Assembly (NCBI GenBank): GCA_910575585.1
Contig: CAJTGF010000027.1
Location: forward strand, 1 to 64,000
DNA from: Clostridiaceae bacterium
Lineage (GTDB): Bacteria; Bacillota; Clostridia; Lachnospirales; Lachnospiraceae
DNA length: 64,000 bases
Direction: 5' to 3'
The stretch's first letter is position 1, and every line of letters begins with the position of its first letter. The translations under genes and the position numbers were made by a program. Under the pieces are notes generated by a model. The model was not told the origin of the DNA. It saw nothing but the letters and a program-made list of their open reading frames with translations, and ran no database searches. Positions 675-59,448 of the stretch are shown piece after piece.

Positions 675-772
675 TGCAAAAGCGGCCTCCCGCCTACCAG
701 CGTGATGTGGAACTGCGCTCCACGTTTCCATACTTACCGTGAAAAACAATAAGGAACCAGAGGAGCAGATCA

Positions 773-1341
773 ATGAAGGGAAAAGAAGGAAAGGATACGG
801 TACACGTTAAGGTTATGATCCGAAGGGTCTTTGCGTATAAGGAAAGCGGCTGGAGCAGCTTCCTGGATGAGGATGCAGATGGCAACATTCAGCGCTTGAA
901 AGGAACGCTGGCGAATGAGCCGAAAACTGATATGACGTATCAGATCGAGATGGAAGCGAAGGCCACACAGACTATGAAGACGAAAGTACCCCCTCATGGG
1001 TGCTGCGGGTCCAGTTTAATGATGGAAGCGAGGCAGTGTATGGCGAGACGGACCTGCTGCAGCTGGAATTGGCACTTGCCATGACGACGCACAAGGCCCA
1101 GGGCTCTGAATTTGCTTATGTGATCGGGACCTTTGCTATGGATCAGTTCACCGTGTTAAGCTGCGCCATCGCCTACACGTTCGTCACAAGGGACAAGAAA
1201 CGGTATTACGCCATATGCCAAAAAAAGGCGATCTTCATGGCGATACGCAATGTCGGATCGTCCAAGAGGGACACGTTTCTGCCAGAAATGTTGGAAAGGG
1301 AAGAAAACATAGCGGAGGGAAAAAAGTTGCTGACAGCATAG
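773..1341 (+). pseudogene. RecD2-like helicase remnant, internally deleted
   Basis: The first ~65 codons from ATG 773 (HVKVMIRRVFAYKESGW) resemble the N-terminal OB-like domain of RecD2 helicases. From about 960 the frame changes to HTDYEDESTPSW followed by a UvrD_C_2-like end with the diagnostic AMTTHKAQGSEF motif (about 1080-1115) and a conserved tail (RNVGSSKRDTFLPEM). The whole ATPase core, including Walker A and B, is missing between the two pieces and the pieces are out of frame. RecD2 is normally about 700 residues or more; here about 190 codons remain. A CCATACTT motif lies at 728-735, 38 nt upstream. Non-functional as a helicase. Confidence 0.6.
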
Positions 1342-1356
1342 CTTTCCGCCTCCCTA

Positions 1357-1378
1357 ACCGATAAAGTCGGTGCTTTTT
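1357..1378 (+). terminator. Probable Rho-independent terminator after the helicase remnant
   Basis: A 5-bp stem ACCGA/TCGGT with a 5-nt loop is followed by GC and five T. The stem is short, so efficiency is uncertain. Confidence 0.4.
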
Positions 1379-1425
1379 AGCCCGAGGAAAGGAGGGAAGA
1401 GGCCCCACAGACGGCCCAAAACGAT

Positions 1426-1701
1426 ATGGAAGGAAAATACAAACAGCGGCTCATGTCCGCAGGCCGCCCCGAAGACGGGGACAGGCCAAGCCTAAAGGAA
1501 CAGTATGAGGAAAAGGAGAAGAAAGAGCTGGTCGTGCAGAAAAGCGCGGTCATGAAGCTCTCTCAGATCTATACAGCCATTATCAGGGCGGTGATGTCCG
1601 CACTGGCGCTGGTAGGGGGTGTGTCGCTGGTACGGCCGGAGATGCGTCAGGTTCTGGCAGGGATCGTCCTGGAAGCCGTCCGGGAGATCAAAGGGTTTTG
1701 A
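1426..1701 (+). CDS. Small hypothetical membrane protein
   Basis: A 91-residue protein. The first ~45 residues are charged (SLKEQYEEKEKKELVV), followed by a hydrophobic stretch around residues 50-70 (AIIRAVMSALALVGGVSLV) that could be one membrane segment, then a short amphipathic tail. The nearest purine-rich site (AAGGAGGG at ~1389) is too far away to be a standard ribosome site, so the start is uncertain. It lies between the helicase remnant and the primase gene. No family recognised. Confidence 0.5.
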   Translation: MEGKYKQRLMSAGRPEDGDRPSLKEQYEEKEKKELVVQKSAVMKLSQIYTAIIRAVMSALALVGGVSLVRPEMRQVLAGIVLEAVREIKGF

Positions 1702-1770
1702 AACTTCGGATGAGGCAGGCCCCACAGACAACAAGAAACAAGAACAGAGAGAATAGGGAAGGAGGCCGGA

Positions 1771-2883
1771 ATGATGGTCCTTCACAGCATGGCGTCCCTT
1801 GTGGGAGGCTACACAAAACTGTCCTATAACGATAGGACGAAAAAATATTACGGGAAATGTTTGTTTTGTCATTCTGGCACGGAAGTGTTCTGCGTAGATA
1901 ACAAGAATGCAGCGTTCTGGTGCTATTCCTGCGGGAGGCACGGGAACATGGAGGATTTCAAGATCTATGCCGGACTCATGCGCCCGCAGCCGGAACCAGA
2001 GCCGGAAGACCAGGGTGCCATGGAGATCTACGTAGCTGCGGCCGCTTATTATTACGGCTGCCTTGCCAGGCGTACTGGAACACAGGCCTATGCCTATATC
2101 ACGAAGGAGAGGGGGGTTAGCCCGGAGACGCTGGCCGACTTCGGCGTCGGGTTCGCACCCTATGGGGGCGGGAACCGGTCCTTGTACAGGCATCTAATGG
2201 AGCGGTTTGATGAGCAGTCCATCTTCCGTTCCGGCCTGGTAAAGCGGGGGAAGTACGGACCCTATGACATGTTCCGGAACCGGATCATGTTCCCGATCCT
2301 GGACCGGGAAGGGCGGGTGGTCGCTTTTGGAGGCCGTAGCCTGGACGGCAGAGGGCCGAAATATTTGAACAGCGCCGAAAGCCGGATTTTCAACAAACAC
2401 ACGATCCTATATGGATTCCAGACGGCGGCAGAGGCGTCAAAAACAGAAGATACACTCCTGGTTTGCGAGGGGTATATGGATCTCATTACCCTGCAGGCAC
2501 ACGGGGTACGTAATTCGGCGGCGGTACTGGGCACAGCGCTGACAAAGGAGCATGCGGGATTGATCCGCTGCTTTTATAAAAAAGTACGTCTGGCGCTTGA
2601 CAGCGACGGGCCGGGGATACAGGCCATGGCTCGTTCCGTCCCGGTCCTGGAAAACGCAGGACTCTCGGTGGACACCATGAGTTTCAGCCCGGCAAAGGAC
2701 CCGGACGAGTTCTTCCGGCTGTACGGGAAGGAAGCCTTAAAAGCCCATGCGGCCTGCGGCTCGGCCCCGTCTGTGCTGATGGTAAGGGCTTCGTCTGAAC
2801 CTGAAGCGGAGCTGGTCCGGCAGCTGGTGAAACGTTTTCGGATCAAAAGGGAAGAAGAAGCTAGGTTAGAAAAGATGGGGTGA
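1771..2883 (+). CDS. DnaG-type DNA primase, short form without helicase-binding domain
   Basis: Makes RNA primers for DNA replication. Residues ~28-58 carry a four-Cys zinc ribbon (CLFC at 30-33, CYSC at 51-54), a variant of the DnaG CHC2 finger. The RNA-polymerase core follows, including FGVGFAPYGG (~125) and the conserved FRNRIMFPI and FGGRSLDGRGPKYLNS blocks (~168-200). The TOPRIM domain shows EGYMDLITL (~232) and LALDSDGPG (~274). At 370 residues it lacks the C-terminal DnaB-interacting domain of ~600-residue housekeeping DnaG, as is common for element-encoded primases. A strong AAGGAGG site precedes ATG 1771; ATG 1774 is an alternative. Probably primes replication of the element. Confidence 0.85.
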   Translation: MMVLHSMASLVGGYTKLSYNDRTKKYYGKCLFCHSGTEVFCVDNKNAAFWCYSCGRHGNMEDFKIYAGLMRPQPEPEPEDQGAMEIYVAAAAYYYGCLARRTGTQAYAYITKERGVSPETLADFGVGFAPYGGGNRSLYRHLMERFDEQSIFRSGLVKRGKYGPYDMFRNRIMFPILDREGRVVAFGGRSLDGRGPKYLNSAESRIFNKHTILYGFQTAAEASKTEDTLLVCEGYMDLITLQAHGVRNSAAVLGTALTKEHAGLIRCFYKKVRLALDSDGPGIQAMARSVPVLENAGLSVDTMSFSPAKDPDEFFRLYGKEALKAHAACGSAPSVLMVRASSEPEAELVRQLVKRFRIKREEEARLEKMG

Positions 2884-2917
2884 ACAGAAAAAATAGAATA
2901 AAGAAACGTTGATCTGC

Positions 2918-6892: not shown

Positions 6893-7873
6893 TTATGTTT
6901 CTTGGTCAGATTTAAACGCTGCATAGCCAGCTTTTTCCTCATCGGAAAAGTCCAGCTGTTCCATGGCATTTTCAATCGTTGTCCGATTCTTTTTGGCATA
7001 TTTCTCTGCGCTTTGATACTTTCCAATCAATATGCCTTGTTTAAGTCCTTTTTCGAGACCCTCTTTTTCGAATTCGTCCAGCAAAGTACACATTTTGACT
7101 TCTCCTTTCCGGGACCTCTCGATCAGGAACGCCTTATATTCACGGTAGCGCTTGTCGCCCGTGAATGTATGGAAAAACTCCAGCATCTCTGATACGTGGA
7201 TCCATTTTCTTTGATCATTATACATTACTTCTTTGTCATTTCCAAGCCGTTTTGCACGGAAAAATTTTGCGATGGTCTGGAAATCACTGCTGAACTTTTG
7301 GATCACATCATCTTCCAGAAAAGCCACCTGGACAAGGTTAATGTGGTAATTGGGAACGAAAGGCTTCAGTTCATCCGGTACATGAACAAGTTCCCACAAA
7401 GTAGTGGGCGCATCCCATTTTTTGAACCCGAAATACAGGACAAGCGTCACCACAGGCCATAATGTCTGTCCCTGGCGTAGACCTTCCGTGTATTTCGCTT
7501 CATTGCCATCTTGTTTGTTTTCGGCTTGAAGGCGTTTGATAATCCATTCGTATGCCGCATAGTCATATCCCATGCAGCGGACCGGCATGATCCGGCAGAT
7601 ATCCGTCTGGTTTTCTAGGCCCCAGACCGCAAAATGTACCTTGCTGCGGATGTCCTCTTTGCAGATGTCGCGGTCTTTCTCATGGTATGGACCTGCTGCA
7701 GCCTTATACCGGCTTGCCGTCGGACCGTCCACCAGATATTTTTCCTCCACGCGCCTTTCGCCACCATAGACGAGCACATTGATGATGTCCGCAAAAACAT
7801 CGCACCAGTCCTCCAGGAGTTTTTCCGTCTGATCCGGTTGGCTTGTTTGGCTTTTTGATTTTTTTGTATACAT
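6893..7873 (-). CDS. Rpn / PD-(D/E)XK nuclease-family transposase-like protein
   Basis: A 326-residue protein. An N-terminal region with an acidic DWCDVFADIINVLVYGG segment is followed by EDIRSKVHFAVWGLENQTD, where E-x-Q/N patterns match PD-(D/E)XK cores of Rpn (recombination-promoting nuclease) proteins, then WPVVTLVLYFG and a helical C-terminus with a Lys/Glu-rich coil. The start is ATG 7873, 8 nt after GGAGGT; an upstream GTG overlaps the ribosome site. On the minus strand CCATACTT (8016-8023) lies upstream. Rpn proteins nick DNA and stimulate RecA-independent recombination; many copies per genome are usual. A related fragment lies at 8170. Confidence 0.7.
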   Translation of the reverse strand: MYTKKSKSQTSQPDQTEKLLEDWCDVFADIINVLVYGGERRVEEKYLVDGPTASRYKAAAGPYHEKDRDICKEDIRSKVHFAVWGLENQTDICRIMPVRCMGYDYAAYEWIIKRLQAENKQDGNEAKYTEGLRQGQTLWPVVTLVLYFGFKKWDAPTTLWELVHVPDELKPFVPNYHINLVQVAFLEDDVIQKFSSDFQTIAKFFRAKRLGNDKEVMYNDQRKWIHVSEMLEFFHTFTGDKRYREYKAFLIERSRKGEVKMCTLLDEFEKEGLEKGLKQGILIGKYQSAEKYAKKNRTTIENAMEQLDFSDEEKAGYAAFKSDQET

Positions 7874-8169
7874 GTCCCTCACCTCCTTGCTTCCGTAAAA
7901 AGTCGGAGGCGCCTGGGGCAGCCTCCGCTAATCTTGCAGAGGCACTGTGCCCCGTGACAGACAAAAACATCTTTTGCCTGATGCCGTACTGCAATGTCTT
8001 GTGTCTGTACAGCATAAGTATGGGAATAAGAGGAAAGTTTTTTTGGGGGTTTTTCTTCGCGCCAGGAATATGCCAGAGTATTTCTGGTCCCGTCACGCAG
8101 CAGAAAAAAATAGATTGTTTTCCTGGCTTTTTTATTTGAACGATAATCCGTATCTGCAAGGCTAAGGAT
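7874..8169. other. Spacer with minus-strand CCATACTT
   Basis: No gene on either strand. Carries the minus-strand CCATACTT (8016-8023), a candidate promoter of the Rpn-like gene, and a run of G's and T's (8040-8055). Confidence 0.4.
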
Positions 8170-8634: not shown

Positions 8635-8645
8635 TATCCGCAAAA
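8635..8645 (+). repeat. TATCCGCAAAA dispersed repeat copy
   Basis: Sits in the context AAAAAAACGC-TATCCGCA. Other copies: 18766, 18844, 26321, 26359, 37934, 50961, 61639, 61858, and reverse-strand 61751. A variant TATCCGTA is at 49420. Confidence 0.6.
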
Positions 8646-8704: not shown

Positions 8705-8796
8705 CCATACTTGCGTTGTAACTGGTAAATAACACAGCAAGTCATGAGAGGAGGAAAACGGAAATGTTGAAGCGAAAAAAACAGCCACACGCTTAA
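8705..8796 (+). promoter_or_regulatory. CCATACTT motif followed by a 10-codon leader ORF
   Basis: CCATACTT (8705-8712) lies 51 nt before ATG 8764, which has a near-perfect ribosome site (GAGAGGAGGAAAACG). The ORF encodes only MLKRKKQPHA before TAA. It may be a leader peptide, or the start of a gene lost downstream. Confidence 0.4.
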
Positions 8797-9827: not shown

Positions 9828-9983
9828 AAAAAGAGCTGGGGAAATTTCGGTTCTTTCTGAACTCTGGGTATTCGCATATTCTCAGATTTTGCTACAAGCC
9901 GTCAAATTGGCTTAGTAAATTAAAATGAGAATAACGGAGTTACCCAAACATCAGAAAGAACCGAAATTTCCCTGGTTCTTTTT
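9828..9983. repeat. Long inverted repeat (hairpin / MITE-like element)
   Basis: Left arm 9828-9860 and right arm 9951-9983 are reverse complements over 33 bp with about two mismatches (core GGGAAATTTCGGTTCTTTCTGA). Inside, TATTCTCAGATTTT (9877-9890) pairs with AAAATGAGAATA (9922-9933) and TGGGTA with TACCCA. The right arm ends in TTTTTT. It could be a miniature inverted-repeat element or an unusually long terminator/RNA structure between the wall-binding and adhesin genes. Confidence 0.65.
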
Positions 9984-10028: not shown

Positions 10029-10036
10029 CCATACTG
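10029..10036 (+). promoter_or_regulatory. CCATACTG motif upstream of the adhesin
   Basis: Lies 31 nt before the adhesin ATG, with AAAAGCGGCC about 25 nt further upstream. Member of the window-wide CCATACTN class. Confidence 0.5.
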
Positions 10037-10067: not shown

Positions 10068-13000
10068 ATGCTATCAAAGATTTACAAGAAAAAGCCGAAA
10101 GCTTTAGCGGCGTTTTTGTCTGCGGCAGTTCTTTTCGGCGCTGTCTGCCCGAAGATGTTTCAGGCTTATAACCTGGACAGGCAGAACGACTGGCAGCACG
10201 AGGCCGTGATTCCTACTTGGCAGGATGACAAGATTGCCGAAGCCACCGGAGCGAAGTTAGTGCCTACCGGGCTGGGTTTCAATTTTGCTCCGTATCCGGG
10301 GTGGCGGGAGCCAGGCGGGTCGTTCTGGCCGCTGGGCGCAGAAACATTTCTGCAGAAGCGGAGTGGATGGGACAATACCGGTTTCGAGATGTTCGAGGGG
10401 CGCCATACCTACTGCACTGGCAACCATATCAATGCTGCCGGTATCCAGCCTGCGGCAAGGGTGTTTGCGTCCAGGGAGGATTATTATTACGATACTGATG
10501 AATCGCATATTTTCCCATACGCCCGGCATGGGAACGTCAAGTTCAACTTCCTGATGCTTGTCATTGCCTGCAACTACCCGGGGGATTACAAGATACCGGA
10601 TAACACCGAACTCCCATCGGAATTTGCGGCAGAACAGATCGTCTCTCAGGCTATCGCCTGGTTCTGCACCAATGATGACAGCCCGGGCTTCACCGGGGAT
10701 TGGGCTTCAGACTTCAATCTGTTTCGTCATGGTTATACGAACTATGAGCCTTACAATAGCATGATGGGGAACTTTGCCGGGAGAAATCCGGAAATACATG
10801 CGAAGCTGCATGCGTCCCCGAACCCTGAAAGCGCGGCAGCCAAAGCCGGCATGACAAACAATGCGGAGGCGTGGTTCTGGGATATCTGGCACTCCACGTA
10901 CTTGACGAGCCTCCTGAGCGCGGACTGGGACAAGGGGATCACCACGTACCACACGGCCGTCCAGGAGCGTGACGGGGAATACCACGCTTATATCGACCTC
11001 TTTGCCACCCCGGAAGCCAAGATATACTTGAATGGGATCACGTTTGAACCGTATGGGGACTGGCAGGCGGTCGGCCAGGAAGCGGACGGCACTTACCATT
11101 TCGTGTCGGCTTCTGGAGAGACAGATGAGAACGGATGCATCGGGGATCTGACCTGGCCGGAAGGAAAGATCGGGGCGCTTCTCCCTATCGACTACACAAA
11201 AGCGCACATACGCACATTTGACACATGGAATGCCAATTACACTAGCGCCCCGGGATTTGGTCACACCCAGACCCAGTTCGCCTCCTATATTGAAAAAGGG
11301 CTCAAGCTGTATATCACGACCCAGAAGACTAGCGAGGGGGATTCCAAGGTTTCCGTCAACCGGCACGAGCATAAGGAGACATGGGAGAGCAACTATACGG
11401 TAGATCTGCATAAATTCGATTCGGAGACAGGGAAACCGTTAGAGGGATCTCATTGGGACATTCTGGAGATGTTTGATGATTCTCAACTGGACAATACAGA
11501 CTTAGACCGGGAGCCAGACGCGCCAGGCAGCTATGAGTCCGGGATTGGAAGTCTTAACCAGACGGAATGGGGGGATGACGAGATCTCATCCAATTATTCC
11601 GGAGACATGGGCGTTAATATATCTGATACCAATAAGTACAACTGGGGCAACGACGGGGGCACCCAGTTCGAACGGTGGGACAATCCCTACAACGACCCGT
11701 GCCGGAGGGATGACAATGTCACCGGGAAGGACGGACAGCTTTACGAGATCGATTCCGCAGGGGTCAACAGCGGCACCAAAGCCCATACGGATACCTACAA
11801 TTACACGTATTACAAAGGTTATTGTGACGGCCATCCGGCACCTGAGATCGAGTATGTTGAATGCGATCATAATGAGGACGAGGACTGCGATTGTGATGAG
11901 ATCAACCAGGAGCTGCATGACGAGGTATGGGAAGCATGGTATGCGGAGGTAGAGAAGTGCGAGCAGCTGGTAGAGGAAGGCGGCTTTTTCCACTGCATCG
12001 AGCCTGGTGACGCGGCCAAGAAGGCCATGGAGGAAGACCGGGATCAGTTTTACAAAGATTTCATCTCCCTGACCTATGATTATTCCGCAGAGGAGATCAC
12101 AGCCGCAAAAGGCTACATCATCCATGGAACACATACGGATGACATCCCGATAGAATGGCGCGTGGTGACCGCCAGTGAGTACAAGGATACATCAGAGGCC
12201 ACAGCGATTGACCATAACGGGCCGTCTGGCTCTGGGAGCGGGGAAACCGGCGGAACCGGGGAACCTGGCGGCGGGAACATAGGCGGATCTGGATCCGGTT
12301 CCGGCGGCGGGAATGGTGACGATGGGAACGATGATGATCTGGAAGATCAGGAGATCACAGGGACGGTCATATCTGTCGATCTGGATAAGAAGATCATTAC
12401 TGTCGAGAACATGGATCTGGAAACTTATACATTCTCGTATGCCCGCGCCGAAAAGGACGGGGATATTGAATATTATAGCGAGGAAGAAATCAAGGTTGGC
12501 GATACCGTTGAGGTTCAGTTCTGGAAAAACCGTGAACCTTATCCGGCATCTTATATCTATGTTTATGAGCCGGATGAAGGCGGGCCGGGCATGAACACAC
12601 TGTTCCAGGAAGCCAGGCAAATCAGTGTTGGACTGGTAAAAGAAACGGTAAAAGCAGAAGAGACAGCCATCGGCTCCAGAGATACCATGGAGGCAGCTGA
12701 CAGTTCGGGAGATACCAAAGACACGACGGACGGATCTATAGACACAAAAGAAGAAGCGACTGGAAACAGGCAGGAAGATACCGGAGAAGATACACCGGAA
12801 AATATCTTGGGAGATACGGAAAGATCCCATGAAGATGCGTCGGGACAGGGTACTGAGCAGGAGGTTTTAGGGGGCAGACAGGAAGCGGATGAGACTGCGA
12901 CTGTTTCCGAGGCAGGCCGCGAGACCACTGTCACATCGTCCAGAAAACGGAGTTCTGAAACCGAAAACGGCCATCTCGATACAGACAAAAATACCCATGG

Positions 13001-15440
13001 CACGGATGGACAGACAGAAGATGAGGAGACAGAGACGGAAGACCCAGAGGAGGACATCCTTGCGGATATCGATATCTTTGAGGACGGGGCTGTCAGTCTG
13101 GACGGATCGTCCGCAACGGCAAGTAACGCAAGGCCAAAGACGGAAAAGACGCAGACCGGGCTGGTCAGCCAGGCAGCCAGCAGGGCCAAAGGCCTCTTAC
13201 GGTTCTTTGGGCTATCGGACGATGATGGGGAGGATGAGGAAAACGGCGATAGCGGATCCGGTTCTTATCTGCGCAATTCCATTCCCTTCCAGCCGTCCCA
13301 AGCCAATACTGTGAAACCGCCAGCCAGTGACATTATCGACTGGACGTTCATCGTGTACGACCACCGCACGGAAGGCGAGATTCACTTTAATAAACGGGAC
13401 TTCGACCTACGGAACGATGAGGGAACGCTGTTCGACGCATACGCTATGGAAAACGGGGACGGCACCCTGGAAGGCGCTGTATACGGCCTGTTTGCGGCAG
13501 AAGATATCGTCCATCCGGACACCAGCGCTGGTGATGACGCGGAGCAGGGGACTGGCATTGTGTTCCAGAAAGGCGATCTGGTCGCCGTTGCCACTACGGA
13601 CCGGAATGGTGACGCCTCATTCATGGCGGTCACGGAAGCGCCAGGCTCTGTTTACAATTACGCATCCGGTTCCATTGAGCATACGGACTGGTATGACGTA
13701 GCACCGAAGAATCTCCATATACCGGAGCAGGAGTCTGCGGCTAAAGAGCGGGACATGGAGTCCTTCATCGGCCATAACCCGGATAACTCGGAGATCACAG
13801 CCGGGAACGGGATGGATCTTACGGACACACAGGAAGGAAACGGGACTTATTTCAAAAAGTACTCGTCAAACCAGAATTATGACTCTGGAATGCTGGCAGG
13901 TAACGAGGTCACGAACAGCAGTGCGGACACCTACCAGGATACTGAGACAACCGGGTATTACCCGATTCAGGATTGTGAGTCCAACAACGGGAACTGCTGG
14001 ATCGGACGCCCCCTCCTGATCGGGCCGGACGGTTCCTCCTATTATATCAAGGAACTTTCCCGCAGCGAGGGATATGAGCTTTCCGTATATGGGAAAAGTG
14101 ATGTGCTGGCAACCAACCGAAATGCATTCCTTGAGGGAAGCGATGTTACTACATCCAGTGGGACATCACAGGTGAGTGGAATGGTATCAGACCGCGAGAA
14201 CGGGGGGACTACCTATTCCATCACCAGTGCGGACACGGATCAGGGATATATCGTCCATCTCACGAATATCCCGGAAAACGCCACGATCAGTATCACCAGC
14301 ACGGAAGGCGTTTGGGATGACAGTGTCTCCCATTATGAAACAAAGCTGACCTATACGCCCGTGGCTGCCACGGAAGGGGCGCCGGTCATGGTCGGCGGGA
14401 GGACATGGGCAGCAGAGATCGGCGATACCATACAGTATAATGGCTCGGAGCATACGGTCAACAATGTCTATACAATTACCCATGACAGATCGACCGTGGC
14501 CCCGGACAATGCAGAGAAGATCGAGAACCCATATCTGGATGTGTCTGCTGTCACGGAAAGTGGGAATATCGCAAACGACATCAACCGCCTGTTTACGAAA
14601 AATGGCTACAGGACACCGGTGGAGGGTTCTCCCTGGGTTGTGGTCGAGGCGGAATCCTTTAACCTGCCTTATGTCGCAAAAGCGATCAATGAACAGCTCT
14701 TCACGGATGACTGGTACAGTGCGTTTAATGCCATGAAAATGGTTGACAATTACCAGTTGGGAGGACATTATTATATCGTCATTGCCTACAGCTACCGCTA
14801 TGCGAAAACCAGCAACTCGATCTACAACGAAGCCAATGATAAGATCTATGTAAAGACGGTGGCCGATTATAGCGGACTTTCTGGTGGTAAGGAAGGATAT
14901 ATCTACCGGGTTTACGATGCGGCGGACTGTGAGAATGTGGAACGTAACAGCAATGGGTTCGTTACAAAAGCGACCGTACCCAACCAGACAGCATCCGGCA
15001 GTGCGGTCTACCACAGAGGGGATCCTTATGGCTCCATATCCTTTGCGACCAAGGAAAATGAAACCTTTTGGGCTTACGCAGCAGGAGAAACCCTCCTGGA
15101 TATAAACGGAGAACCGGTCCTTCAGGAAAATAGGGAACAGGTGTCTGTGACACCTACTTTTGTTATGAAGGTGACAAATGTGGAAGTGACGCTTGGCAGC
15201 TACCAGCAGACAGGTACTTCAGGGGACGGATACGGATATGGGGATTACACGTATACGGTCAGCCAGGATACCCTGGACGGGCTGGAAAATGGAACATTAA
15301 AGTTCCGCATCACGTTTGACCAGGATGACAGCAAGACGAGTTCAAGGAAAGACAATTTTACGGCAAAGAATGGGCATGTATCCATTTCGCTTCCTTTGGC
15401 TGCCAGCGGATCTTATATTGAAAACATCGTCCTGACATAA
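10068..15440 (+). CDS. Giant thioester/SpaA-type surface adhesin, first part (to in-frame TAA)
   Basis: A 1,790-residue exported protein; ribosome site AAGGAG, signal peptide at residues 1-33 (ALAAFLSAAVLFGAV). Residues ~100-210 look like a thioester domain: Cys116 in TYCTGNHIN and Gln194 in VSQAIAWF correspond to the Cys and TQxAIW-type Gln that crosslink in such adhesins. Cna_B/SpaA-like units follow (YTVDLHKFDSETGKPLEG ~ residue 445; GEIHFNKRDFDLRNDEGT ~1100; LEGAVYGLFAAED). Gly/Ser-rich (715-745) and Thr/Glu/Asp-rich (860-1060) linkers separate them. TAA 15438-15440 is followed in the same frame by coherent protein sequence, so this is very likely the N-terminal two-thirds of one ~2,865-codon gene. 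It probably binds partner cells for the T4SS encoded just downstream. Confidence 0.75.
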   Translation: MLSKIYKKKPKALAAFLSAAVLFGAVCPKMFQAYNLDRQNDWQHEAVIPTWQDDKIAEATGAKLVPTGLGFNFAPYPGWREPGGSFWPLGAETFLQKRSGWDNTGFEMFEGRHTYCTGNHINAAGIQPAARVFASREDYYYDTDESHIFPYARHGNVKFNFLMLVIACNYPGDYKIPDNTELPSEFAAEQIVSQAIAWFCTNDDSPGFTGDWASDFNLFRHGYTNYEPYNSMMGNFAGRNPEIHAKLHASPNPESAAAKAGMTNNAEAWFWDIWHSTYLTSLLSADWDKGITTYHTAVQERDGEYHAYIDLFATPEAKIYLNGITFEPYGDWQAVGQEADGTYHFVSASGETDENGCIGDLTWPEGKIGALLPIDYTKAHIRTFDTWNANYTSAPGFGHTQTQFASYIEKGLKLYITTQKTSEGDSKVSVNRHEHKETWESNYTVDLHKFDSETGKPLEGSHWDILEMFDDSQLDNTDLDREPDAPGSYESGIGSLNQTEWGDDEISSNYSGDMGVNISDTNKYNWGNDGGTQFERWDNPYNDPCRRDDNVTGKDGQLYEIDSAGVNSGTKAHTDTYNYTYYKGYCDGHPAPEIEYVECDHNEDEDCDCDEINQELHDEVWEAWYAEVEKCEQLVEEGGFFHCIEPGDAAKKAMEEDRDQFYKDFISLTYDYSAEEITAAKGYIIHGTHTDDIPIEWRVVTASEYKDTSEATAIDHNGPSGSGSGETGGTGEPGGGNIGGSGSGSGGGNGDDGNDDDLEDQEITGTVISVDLDKKIITVENMDLETYTFSYARAEKDGDIEYYSEEEIKVGDTVEVQFWKNREPYPASYIYVYEPDEGGPGMNTLFQEARQISVGLVKETVKAEETAIGSRDTMEAADSSGDTKDTTDGSIDTKEEATGNRQEDTGEDTPENILGDTERSHEDASGQGTEQEVLGGRQEADETATVSEAGRETTVTSSRKRSSETENGHLDTDKNTHGTDGQTEDEETETEDPEEDILADIDIFEDGAVSLDGSSATASNARPKTEKTQTGLVSQAASRAKGLLRFFGLSDDDGEDEENGDSGSGSYLRNSIPFQPSQANTVKPPASDIIDWTFIVYDHRTEGEIHFNKRDFDLRNDEGTLFDAYAMENGDGTLEGAVYGLFAAEDIVHPDTSAGDDAEQGTGIVFQKGDLVAVATTDRNGDASFMAVTEAPGSVYNYASGSIEHTDWYDVAPKNLHIPEQESAAKERDMESFIGHNPDNSEITAGNGMDLTDTQEGNGTYFKKYSSNQNYDSGMLAGNEVTNSSADTYQDTETTGYYPIQDCESNNGNCWIGRPLLIGPDGSSYYIKELSRSEGYELSVYGKSDVLATNRNAFLEGSDVTTSSGTSQVSGMVSDRENGGTTYSITSADTDQGYIVHLTNIPENATISITSTEGVWDDSVSHYETKLTYTPVAATEGAPVMVGGRTWAAEIGDTIQYNGSEHTVNNVYTITHDRSTVAPDNAEKIENPYLDVSAVTESGNIANDINRLFTKNGYRTPVEGSPWVVVEAESFNLPYVAKAINEQLFTDDWYSAFNAMKMVDNYQLGGHYYIVIAYSYRYAKTSNSIYNEANDKIYVKTVADYSGLSGGKEGYIYRVYDAADCENVERNSNGFVTKATVPNQTASGSAVYHRGDPYGSISFATKENETFWAYAAGETLLDINGEPVLQENREQVSVTPTFVMKVTNVEVTLGSYQQTGTSGDGYGYGDYTYTVSQDTLDGLENGTLKFRITFDQDDSKTSSRKDNFTAKNGHVSISLPLAASGSYIENIVLT

Positions 15441-18665: not shown

Positions 18666-19042
18666 GAGACAACATGATAGCACAAAAAAGCGGGTGGGAG
18701 ACCACCCGTCTTTTTCTGCGTACGGGAAATACCGGACAGTATCCCATCCAGGCCGTCAAAAAGCATATCCGCAAAAGGGGAACGAAATCCCGTTCATTGG
18801 CCGGGAAATATCCACGCCAGCCAGCAAAAGTGTAAAAAAACTCTATCCGCAAAAGCCCTGAAAAGAGAATTAATACCCCTGACACGTTTCCTCAAAGGAA
18901 TATTCCTACCGTTTTTCATAGGATCCCCGTTGAAAAAAGCTGCGGGGAAATCAGCATGATGCTCCATACTTACTTTGACAGCACCGGACGGCCATGTGCG
19001 GGCCGGGACGCTGCCGGAATCAAGTAAGTGGAGGTTAGGAGC
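18666..19042. other. Spacer: terminator, two TATCCGCA repeats and a CCATACTT motif
   Basis: Terminator at 18685-18715 (CGGGTGG/CCACCCG then TTTTT) closes the adhesin transcript. TATCCGCA copies lie at 18766 and 18844, each followed by AAAA. CCATACTT at 18964-18971 precedes the next gene by ~70 nt. No coding sequence recognised. Confidence 0.65.
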
Positions 19043-25661: not shown

Positions 25662-25803
25662 GTGCGGATAAGTATTTCTGCGTTCTTGCAAAAATACCAT
25701 GCTGCTTTGCCCGGTGCATGGCGTCCCATACCGGTTTGCAGAATGGGTGCAGGAGCCATACTATAGGCAACAGGAAAATTTCAAGGAAAGCGAGGAGAGA
25801 AAA

Positions 25804-26199: not shown

Positions 26200-26477
26200 G
26201 TGCGGATGCATAAGAAAAACACAAATAAAGCCGTTTCTGCGGCCAGCTCAAAAGCGCCTGTTTTCCGACGGGCTCTTTTTGTGGGCAGAAAACGGGAGCG
26301 CTTTTTGCTCCGAAAAACGCTATCCGCAAAAAATCCAGAAAAATTTCAGGAAAAATGCTATCCGCAGATGATAGCAGGTTGTACCATGCCATACTTATAG
26401 CAGATCACGGAGATCATTCCCTCACGTAATACGCAATGTGTGCGTCTGGGAGAAGGCACAAGAAGGAGGATGATACT
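26200..26477. other. Spacer with two TATCCGCA repeats and a CCATACTT motif
   Basis: Contains TATCCGCA at 26321 (context AAAAACGC-TATCCGCAAAA) and 26359, GC-rich partial palindromes around 26250-26310 (AAAAGCGCC / GAGCGCTTTTTGCTC), and CCATACTT 26389-26396. No gene. The repeats are spaced 38 nt apart. Confidence 0.55.
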
Positions 26478-26961: not shown

Positions 26962-27137
26962 ATATCTGTTACAGGTTCTTGCATCTGGCATTCACCCATG
27001 CCTGATCCAGTTGGTCAGACGTGGTACTGGACTTCCCCGTCGACTTCCCATCCATTTTTTTGCCACCATATCCCTTCCCCTCAAATCCATACTTTCTGTG
27101 AAACCAAACAAGGAATAAGAGAAAGGAGACCAGAAAA

Positions 27138-30800: not shown

Positions 30801-30808
30801 CCATACTG
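30801..30808 (+). promoter_or_regulatory. CCATACTG motif
   Basis: 46 nt before the wall-binding protein start, with AAAAACTGTC 30 nt upstream of it. Lies outside the IS. Confidence 0.45.
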
Positions 30809-30854
30809 CTTATGTAAGTAAATATCGCCAATATAAGAAAGGATGTGTTTGTGC

Positions 30855-32403: not shown

Positions 32404-32619
32404 CCATACTTATCACGACAATAATATAGGCATTTGCAGTTATGGGAAAAAGCAGTTTCTAAAAAAGTGTATGATGAGATGTCCTATGATGTGAACTACC
32501 AAAATAATATGAAAAAATAGGCAGGGTGGCTGCGCTAGAGGAAATATCCCCGGTGCGGCCACTCTGTCTGTTTATAGATGTTTTATATTTTTCTCCCTGG
32601 GTATATGGATCAGAATTGG
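32404..32619. other. Spacer with CCATACTT and a shared hairpin
   Basis: CCATACTT at 32404-32411 faces rightward but only a tiny ORF follows (GTG 32476 region, ending AAAAAATAG 32520). GGGTGGC...GCGGCCAC (32523-32566) forms a hairpin that may end the minus-strand gene at 32620. Possibly the relic of a deleted gene. Confidence 0.4.
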
Positions 32620-33367: not shown

Positions 33368-33375
33368 CAGTATGG
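33368..33375 (-). promoter_or_regulatory. Minus-strand CCATACTG motif
   Basis: Correctly oriented 25 nt before the minus-strand DUF3592-like gene; important because it shows the motif follows gene direction. Confidence 0.5.
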
Positions 33376-33505
33376 CGCATGGACGGTATTTTTTGCCCCT
33401 ACCATGCCGTTCCCATCAAAAAACAGGCAGCAAACGGAAGCCCCCGTTCCCATACTCTCAATGCAAGACACAAATATCAAGGTATATTAGAAAAGGGGAA
33501 ATATC

Positions 33506-34549
33506 ATGACAGAGAAAAACGAGGAAAAGAGGATGGAGGTTTACAAAAACGGGAAGGTAATGCTGCAGCGGATCTCCTGCGTGATGGACCGGGTCCTGGC
33601 GGGCGAAACGGAAACCACAGCATGCCTAAAAGAGAATGTGGATAAAAGCTGGCTGAGGCGTTTCCTAAGGAGCGACATCTCCATCAAACAGGAAGACGGG
33701 AAAGGCAGCGGCAGCGTGGAGATCGACTGCGATGACTGGATGTGCTGGCAGGACCAGTTTTTAACCGACCTGACCGGGCAGGAGTATTACGTGCCGGACG
33801 GCTTCGACCAGATCTATAAGGAATGTACGGAGGAAGCCTGCAGCGAGCAGCAACGGGAGGTCCTGCGCTTAAGGTACCAGGAGGGGCTGACTTTACGGGC
33901 TACCGGGGAGCGGATCGGAAAGACTCAAGAGCGGGTTAGGCAGGCCGAAAGCAAGGCGCTGCGTGTGCTGCGGCACCCGAAATACCGCTATAAGCTCATA
34001 TATGGGCGCGAATATATGGAAGCCCTGGACAAGGCCAGAGGTGCCCAGGCGGAATACGACAAGGCCCGGCTCTCCCGGATGGAAAAGATCGTGGAGGAAA
34101 GGAAAGCCGCAGTACAGAAATGCAGGGCAGAATTGGCAGAAACCGTGAAGCAGCTGGAGTACGTGGCTGCGGAGCCGGATAGGCAGGCAGGCGGCATGAG
34201 CCTGGAAGAGGCCATGGACGCCATCCCACTCAGCGCACTCGGGCTTTCTGTCCGGGTGTATAATGCATTGACCAAACATTTGGTATACGGCCAGCGCACA
34301 AAGCCGATCGAGACCGCAGGACAGCTCGCCAAGCTTTCGCGTGAGGAACTTTACAGCATCAGGAACCTCGGGAAACGCTGCGGGGAAGAAGTAGAAGCGG
34401 CCCTGTTCGAACAGTTCGGGATACGGCTTAGCGACAACGGTAAGAAGCAAAAATCAACAAAAAATAAGAAGGAGAAAAAAGATGAACAATACGATCCAGA
34501 CCGCATTCTTAGCGGGCAACATAGCCATCCTGACGGAGAATGTAGATAG
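33506..34549 (+). CDS. Sigma-region-4 / RNA-polymerase alpha-CTD fusion regulator
   Basis: A 347-residue protein. Residues ~108-160 resemble sigma-70 region 4 (ACSEQQREVLRLRYQEGLTL, ATGERIGKTQERVRQAESKA), the -35-recognising helix-turn-helix. A coiled coil (~165-225) leads to residues ~235-310 that match the RNA polymerase alpha C-terminal domain (LGLSVRVYNALTKHL, TAGQLAKLSREELYSIRNLG, CGEEVEAALFEQFG), which binds UP elements. Region 2 is absent, so it is not a complete sigma factor. It could redirect host polymerase to element promoters. CCATACTC lies 48 nt upstream. Its last ~20 codons overlap the next gene, so the true end may be earlier. Confidence 0.75.
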   Translation: MTEKNEEKRMEVYKNGKVMLQRISCVMDRVLAGETETTACLKENVDKSWLRRFLRSDISIKQEDGKGSGSVEIDCDDWMCWQDQFLTDLTGQEYYVPDGFDQIYKECTEEACSEQQREVLRLRYQEGLTLRATGERIGKTQERVRQAESKALRVLRHPKYRYKLIYGREYMEALDKARGAQAEYDKARLSRMEKIVEERKAAVQKCRAELAETVKQLEYVAAEPDRQAGGMSLEEAMDAIPLSALGLSVRVYNALTKHLVYGQRTKPIETAGQLAKLSREELYSIRNLGKRCGEEVEAALFEQFGIRLSDNGKKQKSTKNKKEKKDEQYDPDRILSGQHSHPDGECR

Positions 34550-34936: not shown

Positions 34937-35086
34937 GGCTGAAACTAAAGATGCCTGTGTCCATACTTACAGCGTAACATGGCGAAAGGCATGGAGGAAG
35001 GAGGTCAAAAAAACAGAAAAGTAACAGAAACAAGGCAACGATCACCAGTAAAAAACGCAAAAAAAACAAAGCAGAGGAAACAAATT

Positions 35087-37849: not shown

Positions 37850-37933
37850 GGGATACCGTTTTTCCTGCACATAATCTTTCCAGCCCATCATGGGGCATAA
37901 ATTTCATCCGGCAGGCTCGAAGTATGGAATAGC

Positions 37934-37978
37934 TATCCGCAGAATATGCACGAAAAGCGCCCCACATTCCCCATACTT
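37934..37978 (+). promoter_or_regulatory. TATCCGCA repeat plus CCATACTT upstream of the NfeD gene
   Basis: TATCCGCA (37934-37941) and CCATACTT (37971-37978) lie 30-70 nt before the NfeD start with CGAAAAGCGCCCC between; a clean example of the combined module. Confidence 0.55.
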
Positions 37979-38479: not shown

Positions 38480-38650
38480 AAAAAAGGTATGCGCAAAAAC
38501 CATAAGCGGAATGCATGAGCCATACTGTATCCAAAGGCCAAAAAAGTACAGGAGTGCCATGCCAGAAACTGTCAACTTATTATTATCGTCCTGAAAGGAG
38601 GATGCGGCACGCCATGCCGGACAGGCTATCCCGTTGCCGCTAGATGTATC

Positions 38651-42123: not shown

Positions 42124-42137
42124 GAGGAGAAAAGCAT

Positions 42138-42626
42138 ATGTTGACGTATCCATTTGGGAAAACCTGCAAGGAGATCTTTGGGAAGTCTGGGGAACCCGTT
42201 TACCGCAGGGGGCAGGTCTACTGCGTCAGACAGTCCCAGGTGACGGGGAGCGAACAGGCGGGAGGAAGGCCTGCGGTCATTGTCAGCAACGATATCGGCA
42301 ATGACTACTCCACGATCATAGAGGTTGTCTACCTGACAACGCAGAAAAAGACTGACCTGCCAACGCATGTCCCGATCAATTCCGTCAAATACCCATCCAC
42401 CGCATTATGCGAGCAGATCCAGACGGTCTGCAAAGATCGTCTCGGCGGGTACATAGGGACTGTGACAGACCAGGAGATGGAGGGGATCAACGAGGCCCTG
42501 CTCATCAGCCTTGGACTAAAAAAGCCGTACAAAAAGAACAAGAAAGCGGAGAATCCAGAGAAAGACGGGGAGTTGAAGGCATCCGGGAGCCAGAAACCCG
42601 GGGCAAGGCGGCAGTACAGGGGGTAA
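42138..42626 (+). CDS. MazF/PemK-family toxin-like protein
   Basis: A 162-residue protein, AGGAGGAG site. MazF fold motifs: YRRGQVYCVR at ~22-31, GSEQAGGRPAVIVSNDIGN (~38-56), THVPINSVKYPSTALCEQIQ (~74-95) and IGTVTDQEMEGINEALLISL. These correspond to the residues that form the endoribonuclease site of MazF/PemK. The Lys-rich tail (KKPYKKNKK) extends beyond the usual ~115 residues. No antitoxin gene is adjacent, so it is orphan, diverged, or regulated elsewhere. It could be an RNA-binding regulator rather than an active toxin. Confidence 0.8.
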   Translation: MLTYPFGKTCKEIFGKSGEPVYRRGQVYCVRQSQVTGSEQAGGRPAVIVSNDIGNDYSTIIEVVYLTTQKKTDLPTHVPINSVKYPSTALCEQIQTVCKDRLGGYIGTVTDQEMEGINEALLISLGLKKPYKKNKKAENPEKDGELKASGSQKPGARRQYRG

Positions 42627-42631
42627 TGCCA

Positions 42632-42680
42632 GAAGACAAGAAAACCAGCCGCACGGATGCGGGAGGTTTTCTTGTCTTTT
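42632..42680 (+). terminator. Terminator with a long stem
   Basis: AAGACAAGAAAACC pairs with GGTTTTCTTGTCTT over 14 bp with a 18-nt loop, followed by T's. Confidence 0.85.
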
Positions 42681-42867
42681 GTATATCCAGGAAGCAGCAG
42701 ATCTGCCGCAATGCCACAGGATGGGCCAAAAAAACCCTGCGGAAACTACGTGGTGGTATCATTCCATTCCCCTGCAGAAAACCGCAGATATCTGCCATAC
42801 TCTCAGTGGTTAGTTTTTGCGGCATTTCCACGGCTTTAACGCCTTTTGTAGAAAGCGAGGTTTTTAT

Positions 42868-45451: not shown

Positions 45452-45606
45452 CCATACTTACCTTGAAGCATGATAAGGCATCTGGAGTCAAGAAAGACAA
45501 GACAGATGCCGCCCAGGCATATGGCATTCCAGCCGCAGCACTTGGCGTTTATAGACAATAAGCAAGGATACCACAACGATATCACGACCAAAAAGGAGGG
45601 AGAGAT
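45452..45606 (+). promoter_or_regulatory. CCATACTT motif and leader before the zinc-knuckle gene
   Basis: CCATACTT at 45452-45459 with AAAACGGGCC 31 nt upstream; then a 150-nt leader without a gene up to the ribosome site AAAGGAGGG (45591). Confidence 0.45.
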
Positions 45607-50960: not shown

Positions 50961-51007
50961 TATCCGCAAAAACGGGAGGCCTCATCCGGCCTCCCATTTC
51001 CATACTA
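50961..51007 (+). promoter_or_regulatory. TATCCGCA repeat, hairpin and CCATACTA upstream of the DUF2130 gene
   Basis: TATCCGCA 50961-50968 is followed by AAAACGG, then GGGAGGCC...GGCCTCCC (50973-50995), a perfect hairpin, then CCATACTA (51000-51007), 43 nt before ATG 51051. One of the clearest examples of the combined module. Confidence 0.6.
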
Positions 51008-53773: not shown

Positions 53774-53873
53774 ATGCGGAAAAACGGCGTCCACGGGGGC
53801 CCTTCCCGTTTCCATACTATCAGTGATCAAATAATAGGCATGGAGCTATAGGCCCAGCCAAAGGAGAAAAATA

Positions 53874-54000: not shown

Positions 54001-54008
54001 CCATACTT
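54001..54008 (+). promoter_or_regulatory. CCATACTT motif
   Basis: 67 nt before ATG 54076. Confidence 0.4.
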
Positions 54009-54330: not shown

Positions 54331-54338
54331 CCATACTT
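54331..54338 (+). promoter_or_regulatory. CCATACTT motif upstream of the recR operon
   Basis: Followed by CCTATGAACAAA; AAAACGCAAAC 31 nt upstream. 110 nt before ATG 54448. Confidence 0.45.
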
Positions 54339-54447: not shown

Positions 54448-54610
54448 ATGGGAAAAGTATTAAGAAGCGGTACGGTATACATGGGTACCTGCCAAAAAGA
54501 TCAAAGGCTACAAAGACACCGTCCACGGCGAATGCTGGGGCAGTGGGAATGTCACAACCTACCTGGAGACAGAAAATGAGCAAGACAAGCAGAACGAGGA
54601 GGTATTCTGA
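54448..54610 (+). pseudogene. Small gene with a frameshift, directly before recR
   Basis: An AAAGGAG site precedes ATG 54448 (MGKVLRSGTVYMGTC). Near 54490 the protein-like reading changes frame to KKIKGYKDTVHGECWGSGNV, TTYLETENEQDKQNEEVF, ending at TGA 54608 that overlaps the recR start (TGATG). The ancestral protein was ~54 residues; a single-base indel in an A-run (54494-54498) is the likely cause. The long alternative ORF 54324-54746 in the third frame is probably spurious. Confidence 0.5.
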
Positions 54611-55206
54611 TGAAATACTACAGCGAGAAGATGAACCGGCTCGTAACGCAGCTTTCCATGCTCCCGGGGATTGGGCAGAAGACGGCGGAGAAACTGGCAT
54701 ACCATATCGTGAAGCTGCCGAAGGAACGGTCAGTGGCGCTGGTTGATGCCATACGGGACGCCAGTGAGAACGTTTCCTACTGTAAGATATGTTTTGCCAC
54801 GTCCGATGAGGATACCTGTCCGGTATGCCGGAGCCAGAACCGGAACCACCGGGTCATCATGGTCGTGGAGAATGACGACAACATGGCCCAGATGGAGAGG
54901 AGCGGTGTGTATGACGGCGTGTACCATGTGCTGCAGGGCGCGATTGACGTCATGAAAGGCATCGGGCCGAACGATATACGCTTAAAGGAACTGATGATCC
55001 GCCTGCGGGATGACGTAGACGAGATCATCCTGGCGACTAATTCCAGTGTAGAAGGCGAGGCTACGGCCACATATATCAGCCATCTGGTGAAGACGCTGGG
55101 TATCAAGGTCACACAGCTGGCATCAGGGATCCCTTACGGAGCTGACATCCAAATGGTCGATGGCCCTACACTGGCACGGGCGTTCCGGAACCGCGGGGAA
55201 GTATAA
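54610..55206 (+). CDS. recR: Recombination protein RecR
   Basis: A 198-residue protein: helix-hairpin-helix (~13-35, LSMLPGIGQKTAEKLAYHIV), zinc finger Cys58, Cys61, Cys70, Cys73 (YCKICF, TCPVCR), TOPRIM domain (~80-175, VIMVVENDDNMAQMERSGVY; DDVDEIILATNSSVEGEATA) and Walker B-like C-terminal ASGIPYGADIQMVDGPTLARA. RecR, with RecO and RecF, loads RecA at gaps. A second copy on an element is a common way to help its own replication or repair. Intact and well supported; start overlaps the previous stop. Confidence 0.95.
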   Translation: MKYYSEKMNRLVTQLSMLPGIGQKTAEKLAYHIVKLPKERSVALVDAIRDASENVSYCKICFATSDEDTCPVCRSQNRNHRVIMVVENDDNMAQMERSGVYDGVYHVLQGAIDVMKGIGPNDIRLKELMIRLRDDVDEIILATNSSVEGEATATYISHLVKTLGIKVTQLASGIPYGADIQMVDGPTLARAFRNRGEV

Positions 55207-57289: not shown

Positions 57290-57308
57290 GATAGGAGTTA
57301 TCTGGACA

Positions 57309-57338
57309 TTGACAAAGACCATCAAAAAAACATATAAT
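57309..57338 (+). promoter_or_regulatory. Sigma-A promoter of the Rpn gene
   Basis: TTGACA (57309-57314), 18-nt spacer, TATAAT (57333-57338), just before AAGGAG. A clearly classical promoter, and not of the CCATACTN kind. Confidence 0.75.
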
Positions 57339-57357
57339 AAAGATAAGGAGAGAACCA

Positions 57358-58311: not shown

Positions 58312-58372
58312 TCCTGCAGATGCAGAAACAGGGTTACCATTTTCCGAAGCAGCAATCCATGTAACCTATACA

Positions 58373-58401
58373 AGAGACCGTCATTATGGCGGCCTCTTTT
58401 T
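58373..58401 (+). terminator. Terminator after the Rpn gene
   Basis: GAGACCGTCA/TGGCGGCCTC imperfect stem followed by TTTTT. Confidence 0.7.
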
Positions 58402-58457
58402 GTGTGTAAAAATATCCACATATGCATCCTCCTGACGCTGATTTACGGCTCAAGGCA

Positions 58458-58478
58458 CCATACTGCTATGGTCATACT
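58458..58478 (+). promoter_or_regulatory. Twin motif: CCATACTG and TCATACTT
   Basis: Two near copies 14 nt apart (58458-58465 and 58471-58478), 50-60 nt before the transglutaminase-like gene's first ATG 58526. Confidence 0.4.
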
Positions 58479-58525
58479 TAAGGAAAGTGCAAGAGAGAGA
58501 ATCTTCAGTACAGAAGGAGGCCGCT

Positions 58526-59407
58526 ATGAAAAACCGTTTTACAGTACGCTTTACCGCCGCAATACTGACCGCCGGGATTTATTGCCTGTATTCCCCCATC
58601 CATACGTAATCCATGCAGGGGAGGCACAGGAATATATCCGCACTATGGGCGACTGACTCTGATACAGTGATGGCAGCTGAGGGTTCCGATATCTTTTTCT
58701 TCAATACTGACAAAAGATATCTGTACAGCGGCAAAGGCATGTATAGAACCCCTGGGGCAGTTGTTGATGATGGAGCAGGAGGATGCGTGTATACCGGGGA
58801 TTATGAAATGGACAGGGAAATCTATTCCGCAAGCCGGGACTTATACTGCGGGAATGTCGGGTACAGCATGGAATATGAACGATACCCGAATGGGGATGTC
58901 CGCCTGTTTTTTAGGACCTGGTATGGGACACCGATACAGGCATATAAAGAACATACGGAGGCGAAGCAGAAGATTAAAGAGATCTCAGATTCCTTTCACG
59001 GATCTGATGCCGAGAAGGCAGAACAGACCTTTCAATGGGTCTGCAGCCATGTGGCGTATGCGGATGATGAAACGATATGGCAGCTTGAGGGCATGGGGCA
59101 GGACTGCGTACCGGATTATACCGGGATCCATGCCACAACCTATACCGCCGTCATGGACGGGGTAACGACTTGTTCCGGGTTTTCCGGCATGCTCTTGACC
59201 TTGTTGGACATGGAAGGGATTCCTGCAATGAAGATAAAGAACCATCTGCATGCCTACAATGCGGCGCTCGTGGAAGGGCGCTGGGTGCTGTATGACGCAG
59301 CCAGCGGCGTATCCGGCGACCCGGAAAGATTTATCCGGCGCTACCGGGATTACTATGAGCCGCAGGAAGTCACATGCGGTTTTTCGGCATATGCAGGTGA
59401 GGATTGA
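58526..59407 (+). pseudogene. Secreted transglutaminase-like protein, interrupted by in-frame TAA
   Basis: ATG 58526 (GAAGGAGG) opens a signal peptide (FTVRFTAAILTAGIYCLYSP) and meets TAA at 58607-58609; the same frame continues through 59407. ATG 58613 in the downstream part has no ribosome site. The second part contains a transglutaminase-like core: MDGVTTCSGFSGMLLTLLDM (catalytic Cys), KNHLHAYNAALVEGRWVLYD (His and Asp), and TDKRYLYSGKGMYRTPGAVV earlier. The junction could instead involve a small indel near 58600. If functional, it would crosslink or hydrolyse surface peptides. Confidence 0.55.
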
Positions 59408-59440
59408 CACCGGGCATTCGGCGGGTGTGAAAACTGCCAT

Positions 59441-59448
59441 CCATACTC
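59441..59448 (+). promoter_or_regulatory. CCATACTC motif
   Basis: 42 nt before ATG 59491; AAAACTGCC immediately upstream. Confidence 0.4.

Follow-up and report, generated by a model that had tools for sequence, protein, structure and literature searches.

We analysed a 64,000-base stretch of DNA from Clostridiaceae bacterium, here called the window, that comprises bases 1-64000 of contig C27 (66,607 bases) in a genome of 6.1 Mb and 253 contigs (G000). The window is a piece of a large, probably integrated, conjugative-type element. The seven-base motif CCATACT lies upstream of many genes in the window and in other pieces of this element, and almost certainly marks a promoter class of the element. 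Its copies have a fixed geometry relative to a predicted start site, are restricted to the element and are conserved in a related element from another species of the same genus (G009). In both elements a gene for a sigma factor lies behind CCATACT. Judged from sequence, CCATACT is probably a -10 element private to the mobile element and used with no -35, and its reader is most likely the element's own self-activating sigma-70 factor.

CCATACT is placed upstream of genes on the element

The window contains 30 copies of CCATACT, 22 on the plus strand and 8 on the minus strand, compared with 5.73 expected from 100 dinucleotide shuffles (standard deviation 2.40, maximum 13). A first-pass annotation of this DNA had listed 20 plus-strand and two minus-strand copies, all of which are present, and had described them as mostly CCATACTT, a fair description that applies to 11 of the 22 plus and 2 of the 8 minus copies. 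It placed the motif usually 25-80 nucleotides (nt) before genes. Measured to the starts that it used, 15 of 20 distances are 31-72 nt, one is 82 nt and four are 110-148 nt.

We ranked 7-mers in 150-nt upstream regions under a first-order model with no prior motif. The most over-represented word was CCATACT in all three sets: the window contig (11 of 57 regions versus 0.18 expected), the remaining element pieces (29 of 137 versus 0.51) and the related G009 element (12 of 34 versus 0.13). When 7-mers were ranked over entire contigs with a higher-order Markov model, it came first in none of eight sequences and reached the top ten in C83 only, because its sub-words are enriched along with it.

Seven element sequences were used for counting: the window contig, C3 (cut at 42 kb), C33, C59, C83 (cut at 20 kb) and C120 from G000, and the G009 element. 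The further enriched stretches of G000 contained 15 (C3, 1-42 kb), 23 (C33), 14 (C59), 14 (C83) and 5 (C120) copies. Over the element pieces CCATACT occurred 121 times and its anagram CATATCC 120 times, so placement and not copy number bears the argument. Near-start copies, defined as intergenic and within 250 nt of a start on the same strand, numbered 64 of the 121 for CCATACT, compared with a mean of 1.65 and a maximum of 33 among 199 anagrams. No single-base variant exceeded 7 near-start copies (ACATACT and CCATCCT were the commonest, with 7 each), and variants toward a sigma-A sequence had one (CTATACT) or three (CCATAAT).

For comparison with the host we used contigs C5 and C6, 60 kb each. 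The first-pass annotation had reasoned that an element-specific class should not be matched in density by host sequence, and this was the case. C5 and C6 had 3 and 5 copies versus 4.8 and 5.6 expected, and none of the eight was intergenic within 250 nt of a same-strand start. CCATACT was absent from the 74 host upstream regions, where the top words were ribosome-binding sites followed by TATAAT-like words. Across G000 the promoter pattern CCATACTN5TGA had 39 matches, 27 of them on motif-bearing element contigs. The 12 matches off these contigs are similar to the 9 given by the reversed control pattern over the whole genome. Densities in G000 (39 in 6.1 Mb) and G009 (14 in 3.0 Mb) were the highest of 26 genomes in the genus.

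The motif and its surroundings have promoter geometry

Genes were taken from simple open reading frame (ORF) calls of our own, and by these crude calls some sites fall inside ORFs. We classed 68 of the 121 copies as intergenic (at most 350 nt from a start), 28 as clearly intragenic and 25 as neither. A pyrimidine-purine (YR) step was found at one register in 57 of the 68 intergenic sites versus 5 of the 28 intragenic sites. At the other registers examined (7 to 21), each neighbouring position had the step in 4 of the intergenic sites and none had it in more than 28. In the G009 element alone, 10 of 14 sites had the step at the expected register. It was also present in 21 of the 25 unclassed copies, suggesting that some real sites were misfiled.

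The predicted start is the purine 7 nt past the last T of CATACT. With this purine as +1, CATACT lies at -12 to -7, the standard place of a -10 element. The consensus of the 68 sites is CCATACT followed by T at -6 (48 sites), C or T at -5, C at -4 (34), T or C at -1 (59), G or A at +1 (63) and then AAA. All seven bases of CCATACT are near-invariant, including the C at -13. A G/TGAAC-like sequence noticed earlier just after the motif corresponds to the transcription start region, with consensus T at -1 and G at +1 followed by AAA.

No -35 hexamer was visible in the position table of the 68 sites. These sites do not have the TG at -15/-14 of an extended -10 (T 26, A 22, C 18 and G 2 at -15; T 32, C 18, G 16 and A 2 at -14). 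CCATACT is strict and does not fit the substitution-tolerant, TATAAT-like -10 of sigma-A promoters.

Upstream of the motif, runs of four or more A or T were found between -35 and -22 from it in 40 of the 68 intergenic versus 9 of the 28 intragenic sites. Four other 13-nt stretches had such runs in 10 to 25 of the 68 sites. The runs mostly begin at -32 to -28 from the motif, consist of A or of T about equally often and are centred about -41.5 from the predicted start. They are periodic, with a best period of 10.0 bp, and 0 of 5000 row rotations gave a period as strong. The A-rich, AAAACGG-like block of the first-pass annotation is therefore real as a run of either A or T. The alpha-CTD of RNA polymerase contacts an UP element at -41.5, and 40 of the 68 sites have an A/T-rich tract near -41 on helical phase, as an UP element does. 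The tract, which may have either orientation, is thus a putative alpha-CTD site. It differs from an UP element in standing alongside a non-canonical -10 with no -35, and the contact with alpha-CTD is likewise putative.

A repeat that had also been noticed earlier, TATCCGCA, is present in 78 copies in 286 kb of element sequence versus 12 in 120 kb of host sequence. In a subset of sites it lies 30-33 nt upstream of CCATACT, most often at exactly 32 nt, and it often follows an A tract. Window copies include those at 8635, 18766, 18844, 26321, 26359, 37934 and 50961, among others. It is probably an activator site in the same slot as the A/T tract. It resembles a DnaA box with one change.

We considered whether CCATACT might instead be an operator or an RNA leader element, with the true promoters elsewhere. 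Every site was picked by the motif, and some copies are 110-320 nt from a start, both of which leave some room for such a reading. The fixed YR step, with only 4 sites at each neighbouring register, and the helically phased A/T runs are features of promoters. Folding just upstream of the motif was no stronger than in the flanks (mean z -0.47, versus -1.00 further upstream and -0.42 downstream). We regard this explanation as very improbable, and of the promoter and operator options left open by the first-pass annotation the promoter is favoured. A structural RNA reading was set aside, there being no Rfam family at gathering score in the window and no special folding upstream of the motif. So was a terminator hairpin in the upstream block, where z was below -2 in 7 of 68 sites versus 16 of 68 further upstream. 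Single sites, such as that at 51000, have a hairpin abutting the motif.

A host sigma factor could also read CCATACT, either sigma-A with an activator at -41.5 or a sporulation sigma factor whose -10 begins with CATA. The consensus -10 of sigma-E and sigma-K also starts with CATA, so the CATAC core resembles a sigma-E -10, and -41.5 is a usual position of an activator. G000 also has many sigma-70 genes (30 matches to region 2, 27 above the cut-off, the element's own included). A host factor would be expected to leave the motif before host genes, yet no copy near a start was seen in the 120 kb of host sequence sampled, matches to the promoter pattern off the motif-bearing contigs were at control level and host upstream regions had TATAAT-like words. 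The near-start variants, at most 7 versus 64 exact copies, are fewer than expected of sigma-A. We therefore consider a host reader quite unlikely, and favour a factor encoded by the element.

The CCATACT copies in the window are given below with strand, neighbouring gene and context.

728..734, plus: gene 773, with a DnaG-like primase gene (1771) further downstream; intergenic, step TG at the expected place
8017..8023, minus: gene 6893-7882 (Pfam Transposase_31); intergenic, YR step, A/T run
8705..8711, plus: before 8764; YR step, A/T run, TATCCGCA 70 nt upstream; within an ORF by the crude calls
10029..10035, plus: gene 10068-15440, 1790 amino acids (aa), SpaA match weak and below the curated cut-off; intergenic, A/T run, no YR step at the expected place
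18964..18970, plus: before a gene run with PrgI-like 21253 and VirB4-like 21812; intergenic, YR step, A/T run
25756..25762, plus: gene 25804; intergenic, YR step
26389..26395, plus: TATCCGCA at -68 and -30; intergenic, YR step
27087..27093, plus: gene 27138; intergenic, YR step, A/T run
30801..30807, plus: gene 30843-32315, judged by eye to encode a secreted protein with repeats; intergenic, YR step, A/T run
32404..32410, plus: not listed earlier, apparently a genuine site although no clear gene follows it directly; intergenic, YR step, A/T run
33369..33375, minus: divergent gene 32620-33342, 26 nt from its start; intergenic, no YR step
33450..33456, plus: sigma region 4 - alpha-CTD fusion gene 33506; intergenic, YR step, A/T run
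34961..34967, plus: gene 35087; intergenic, YR step, A/T run
37921..37927, minus: not listed earlier, divergent from 37971 and with no gene close by in its orientation; intergenic, lacking a YR step, perhaps a chance copy
37971..37977, plus: NfeD-like gene 38003/38009; intergenic, YR step, TATCCGCA at -37
38520..38526, plus: SPFH/band-7 gene 38651; intergenic, YR step
42795..42801, plus: gene 42868; YR step; within an ORF by the crude calls
45452..45458, plus: gene 45607; intergenic, YR step, A/T run
51000..51006, plus: DUF2130 gene 51033/51051; intergenic, YR step, A/T run, TATCCGCA at -39, hairpin abutting upstream
53812..53818, plus: before 53874; intergenic, YR step, A/T run
54001..54007, plus: before 54076; intergenic, YR step
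54331..54337, plus: before 54448 and the RecR gene 54610-55206; YR step, A/T run; within an ORF by the crude calls
58458..58464, plus: before 58613 (transglutaminase match weak and below cut-off); intergenic, no YR step at the expected place
59441..59447, plus: gene 59491, CCATAAT following at 59448; intergenic, no YR step at the expected place
28774, plus: not listed earlier; inside a called gene, no start-site step
9392, 20210, 26720, 43537 and 50638, minus: five copies not listed earlier; inside called genes

The element encodes a sigma factor behind its own CCATACT

The candidate reader is a sigma-70-family protein of 302 aa encoded at C59:28959-29867, about 4 kb in from the end of C59 that faces the window contig. 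G009 has a homologue that is 44-46% identical. Both contain Pfam sigma regions 2, 3 and 4 above the cut-off, and each sigma gene starts downstream of a CCATACT, at a distance of 46 nt on C59 and 48 nt in G009. The best family matches of the element sigma factor are RpoD-type. In a tree of 37 sigma factors the two homologues formed their own clade (100/100), apart from host sigma-A-like proteins and from sigma factors of viral contigs; long branches leave the deeper joins in this tree unsure. Regions 2.4 and 4.2 differ from those of sigma-A, which is consistent with a changed -10 and a lost -35.

Relatives of this protein are distant. At an E-value of 1e-50 the remaining 24 genomes of the genus yielded no further copy. 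A sample of 396 genomes from the family, scored for up to five candidates each, also yielded none at this threshold. An alignment search of GTDB contigs kept 80 loci, all distant (26-35% identity), and a search of IMG/VR gave 67 sigma loci. A plasmid search gave 135 records, all below 60% identity and, among the 20 matches listed, from 30.6% to 36.0%.

These observations suggest a mechanism in which the sigma protein would bind CCATACT. Because its gene sits behind the same promoter, the factor, once made, should switch on itself and the genes of the element. An inducing event would lead to some sigma factor being made; this would capture host polymerase, start transcription at its own CCATACT promoter and so amplify itself. 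It would then turn on the replication, conjugation and surface genes of the element while leaving host genes alone. The genes behind CCATACT would in this way be switched together. A few genes bear TATAAT and may be expressed constitutively by the host. Two window genes had been annotated as having classical sigma-A promoters. One of these, 57358, has an exact TATAAT 19 nt upstream at 57333, which agrees with that assignment, and for the other, 9028, no exact TATAAT was listed.

The window encodes a sigma region 4 - alpha-CTD fusion

33506..34549, plus: sigma region 4 - alpha-CTD fusion protein, 347 aa; region 4 at residues 113-157 and alpha-CTD at 235-300 (Pfam E-values 7.5e-14 and 7.4e-11), with PDB sequence matches

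This protein could itself be the main reader and draw host polymerase to the A/T tract at -41.5. It has both of the domains that normally contact the -35 and -41 regions, its gene is itself preceded by CCATACT, and the promoters lack a -35 hexamer but have the A/T tract. We found no region 2 in it, and it would therefore not be expected to read a -10 by itself. No relatives were detected at an E-value of 1e-12 in 294 other genomes, nor in plasmids, phages or close-relative scans of IMG/VR and GTDB contigs. G009, whose genome is 80% complete, has the motif, but we found no copy of the fusion there and the only alpha-CTD match was partial, on its contig C107. As the common reader of both elements the fusion was set aside, no copy being detected in the second species. 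We consider a key role for it distinctly improbable. With no recognisable region 2, it is more likely to be a helper than a reader.

A near-complete private programme can also be envisaged, in which the sigma factor would read CCATACT and the fusion would bind the A/T tract at -41.5 and so stand in for the absent -35 contact. We think this elaboration unlikely. If true, the -10 and the upstream tract would have separate readers, the latter built from two polymerase parts, and we know of no described system of this kind.

CCATACT sites are conserved in a related element

Contig C3 of G009 contains 20 copies of CCATACT versus 5.0 expected, and three 20-kb stretches of other G009 contigs contain 0, 0 and 3. 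The gene order of this contig is that of the end of the window contig, then C59 reversed, then the start of C3 of G000. Because one G009 contig bridges all three in order, the window contig, C59 and C3 are very probably neighbours in one element.

Among 35 reciprocal-best gene pairs between G000 and G009, both members had a site in 12, neither in 17, only the G000 member in 5 and only the G009 member in 1 (Fisher P 8e-5). The 12 conserved pairs correspond to 11 distinct sites, since one site serves two genes. Spacing to the start was kept within 3 nt in seven pairs (72/73, 48/46, 57/58, 37/39, 42/39, 63/62 and 45/46 nt). The others were 60/70, 171/218, 51/167 and 344/229 nt, and the second gene of the site that serves two had 280/274 nt. 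On visual inspection, the non-coding sequence around the conserved sites differs between the species. Restriction to the element, the distance to the start-site step, the positioned upstream partner and conservation between orthologues together support an element-specific promoter class, one of the two options proposed in the first-pass annotation.

Several observations weigh against the interpretation that we favour. The YR step is absent from the expected place in 11 of the 68 intergenic sites, and in 4 of the 22 window sites listed earlier. The residues at the sigma positions that read -12 differ between the two homologues, though both elements use the same motif. Only two elements bearing this sigma gene are known, so the co-occurrence is thin, and the gene is on a contig other than that of the window, joined to it by synteny only. 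C33, C83 and C120 were chosen by the motif itself, making it partly circular to count them as element contigs; C27, C59 and C3 alone account for 16 of the 39 matches to CCATACTN5TGA. In several further genomes of the genus the pattern likewise outnumbers its reversed control (for example, 18 versus 5 and 11 versus 0), so part of the excess of this pattern is background.

Extent and content of the element

The window encodes a VirB4 conjugation ATPase of the CD1110 family (21812-24460, above the cut-off), as expected of an integrative conjugative element. No relaxase was found among the proteins scanned, in which no search was aimed at a relaxase or oriT. Other window genes encode the DnaG-like primase, the PrgI-like protein, RecR and many proteins of unknown function, and two long proteins have weak SpaA (adhesin-type) matches. 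No tRNA was found in the window. It also contains a 43-nt inverted repeat (9828-9870 and 9941-9983) that is 86% complementary, with arms 70 nt apart.

On C3 of G000 a large serine recombinase gene (41278-42855) and a recombinase-like ORF (39767) are followed by the C-terminal part of comM and then dprA; topA was named from its sequence. The N-terminal part of comM is on C62, with two more CCATACT sites beyond it.

C3:41278-48365 and C62:19462-20628: comM parts and neighbours, at the apparent ends of the element, the C3 part by the recombinase genes

On the Mg_chelatase profile one part spans positions 1-182 and the other 152-206, so that they overlap. Because they adjoin both apparent ends, the element is probably integrated in comM. 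Judged by synteny, it very probably takes in the window contig, C59 and some 44 kb of C3, which makes a minimum of about 145 kb. If the C62 end, C33, C83 and C120 are included, it would be about 240 kb, with C33, C83 and C120 placed mainly by the motif. A second insertion is possible, because in G009 genes like those of C120 share a contig with relatives of host contig C5.

The cargo of the element includes DNA polymerase III alpha, SSB, a topoisomerase, an NAD-dependent ligase, a RecJ-like nuclease, an actin-like protein and a SpaA-domain surface protein. The polymerase, SSB, topoisomerase, ligase and nuclease, encoded on C59 and C3:1-40000, make up much of a replication set. Genes with a CCATACT site before them include those for the polymerase, SSB, the topoisomerase, the actin-like protein and the sigma factor. 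An identical string, CCATACTTCTTTTGA, occurs at C3:16703, C3:18138 and C10:82524, and the similar flanks of both C3 copies suggest a duplicated module.

Relation to known systems and significance

The nearest described case that we found is SigN (ZpdN) of the Bacillus subtilis plasmid pBS32. In the portion of the report available, it is a sigma factor of a mobile replicon that transcribes its own gene and a regulon largely limited to that replicon (PMC6751061). The element described here is of a similar kind: it has a sigma factor with regions 2 and 4, the motif is on the element and not in the host, and the sigma gene lies behind its own promoter. By the descriptions available, the two are set apart in that SigN is weakly ECF-like with promoters that have a TTTACG-type -35 block and an AGATA-type -10 (PMC6751061), while the factor of this element is RpoD-type with regions 2, 3 and 4 and would use a CCATACT -10 with no -35. 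Sigma-like genes are also present on conjugative transposons of the Tn916, Tn1549 and Tn5397 types in Clostridioides difficile, where they are suspected of transcribing element genes; the part of that report consulted says that their promoter consensus is still to be identified (PMC7438776). Compared by description only, the present element differs in offering a promoter class together with a candidate factor for it. We found no prior description of a CCATACT promoter class in searches of the literature on element-encoded sigma factors, and among the listed titles of papers containing the string CCATACT none was obviously about such a promoter.

Many large viral contigs in IMG/VR (L149-L169) encode divergent RpoD-like sigma factors about 30-38% identical to that of the element. 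They are alike in being divergent RpoD-like factors on large mobile genomes, and differ in occupying a separate part of the sigma tree. The closest, L149 (38% identity), had 2 copies of CCATACT versus 2.1 expected. L151 (6 versus 1.1 expected) and L160 (5 versus 1.5) had a mild excess, with the start-site step in only 1 of 6 and 1 of 5 copies. They were not accepted as further members, there being no matching promoter context.

The pairing of one sigma gene with dozens of predicted promoters, each with a predicted start base, is directly testable. A -10 with seven near-invariant bases that apparently works with no -35 bears on how sigma factors evolve specificity, and a strict, private promoter of this kind is a possible orthogonal expression tool. 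Such a promoter class also bears on how a mobile element may run a large set of genes outside the control of its host.

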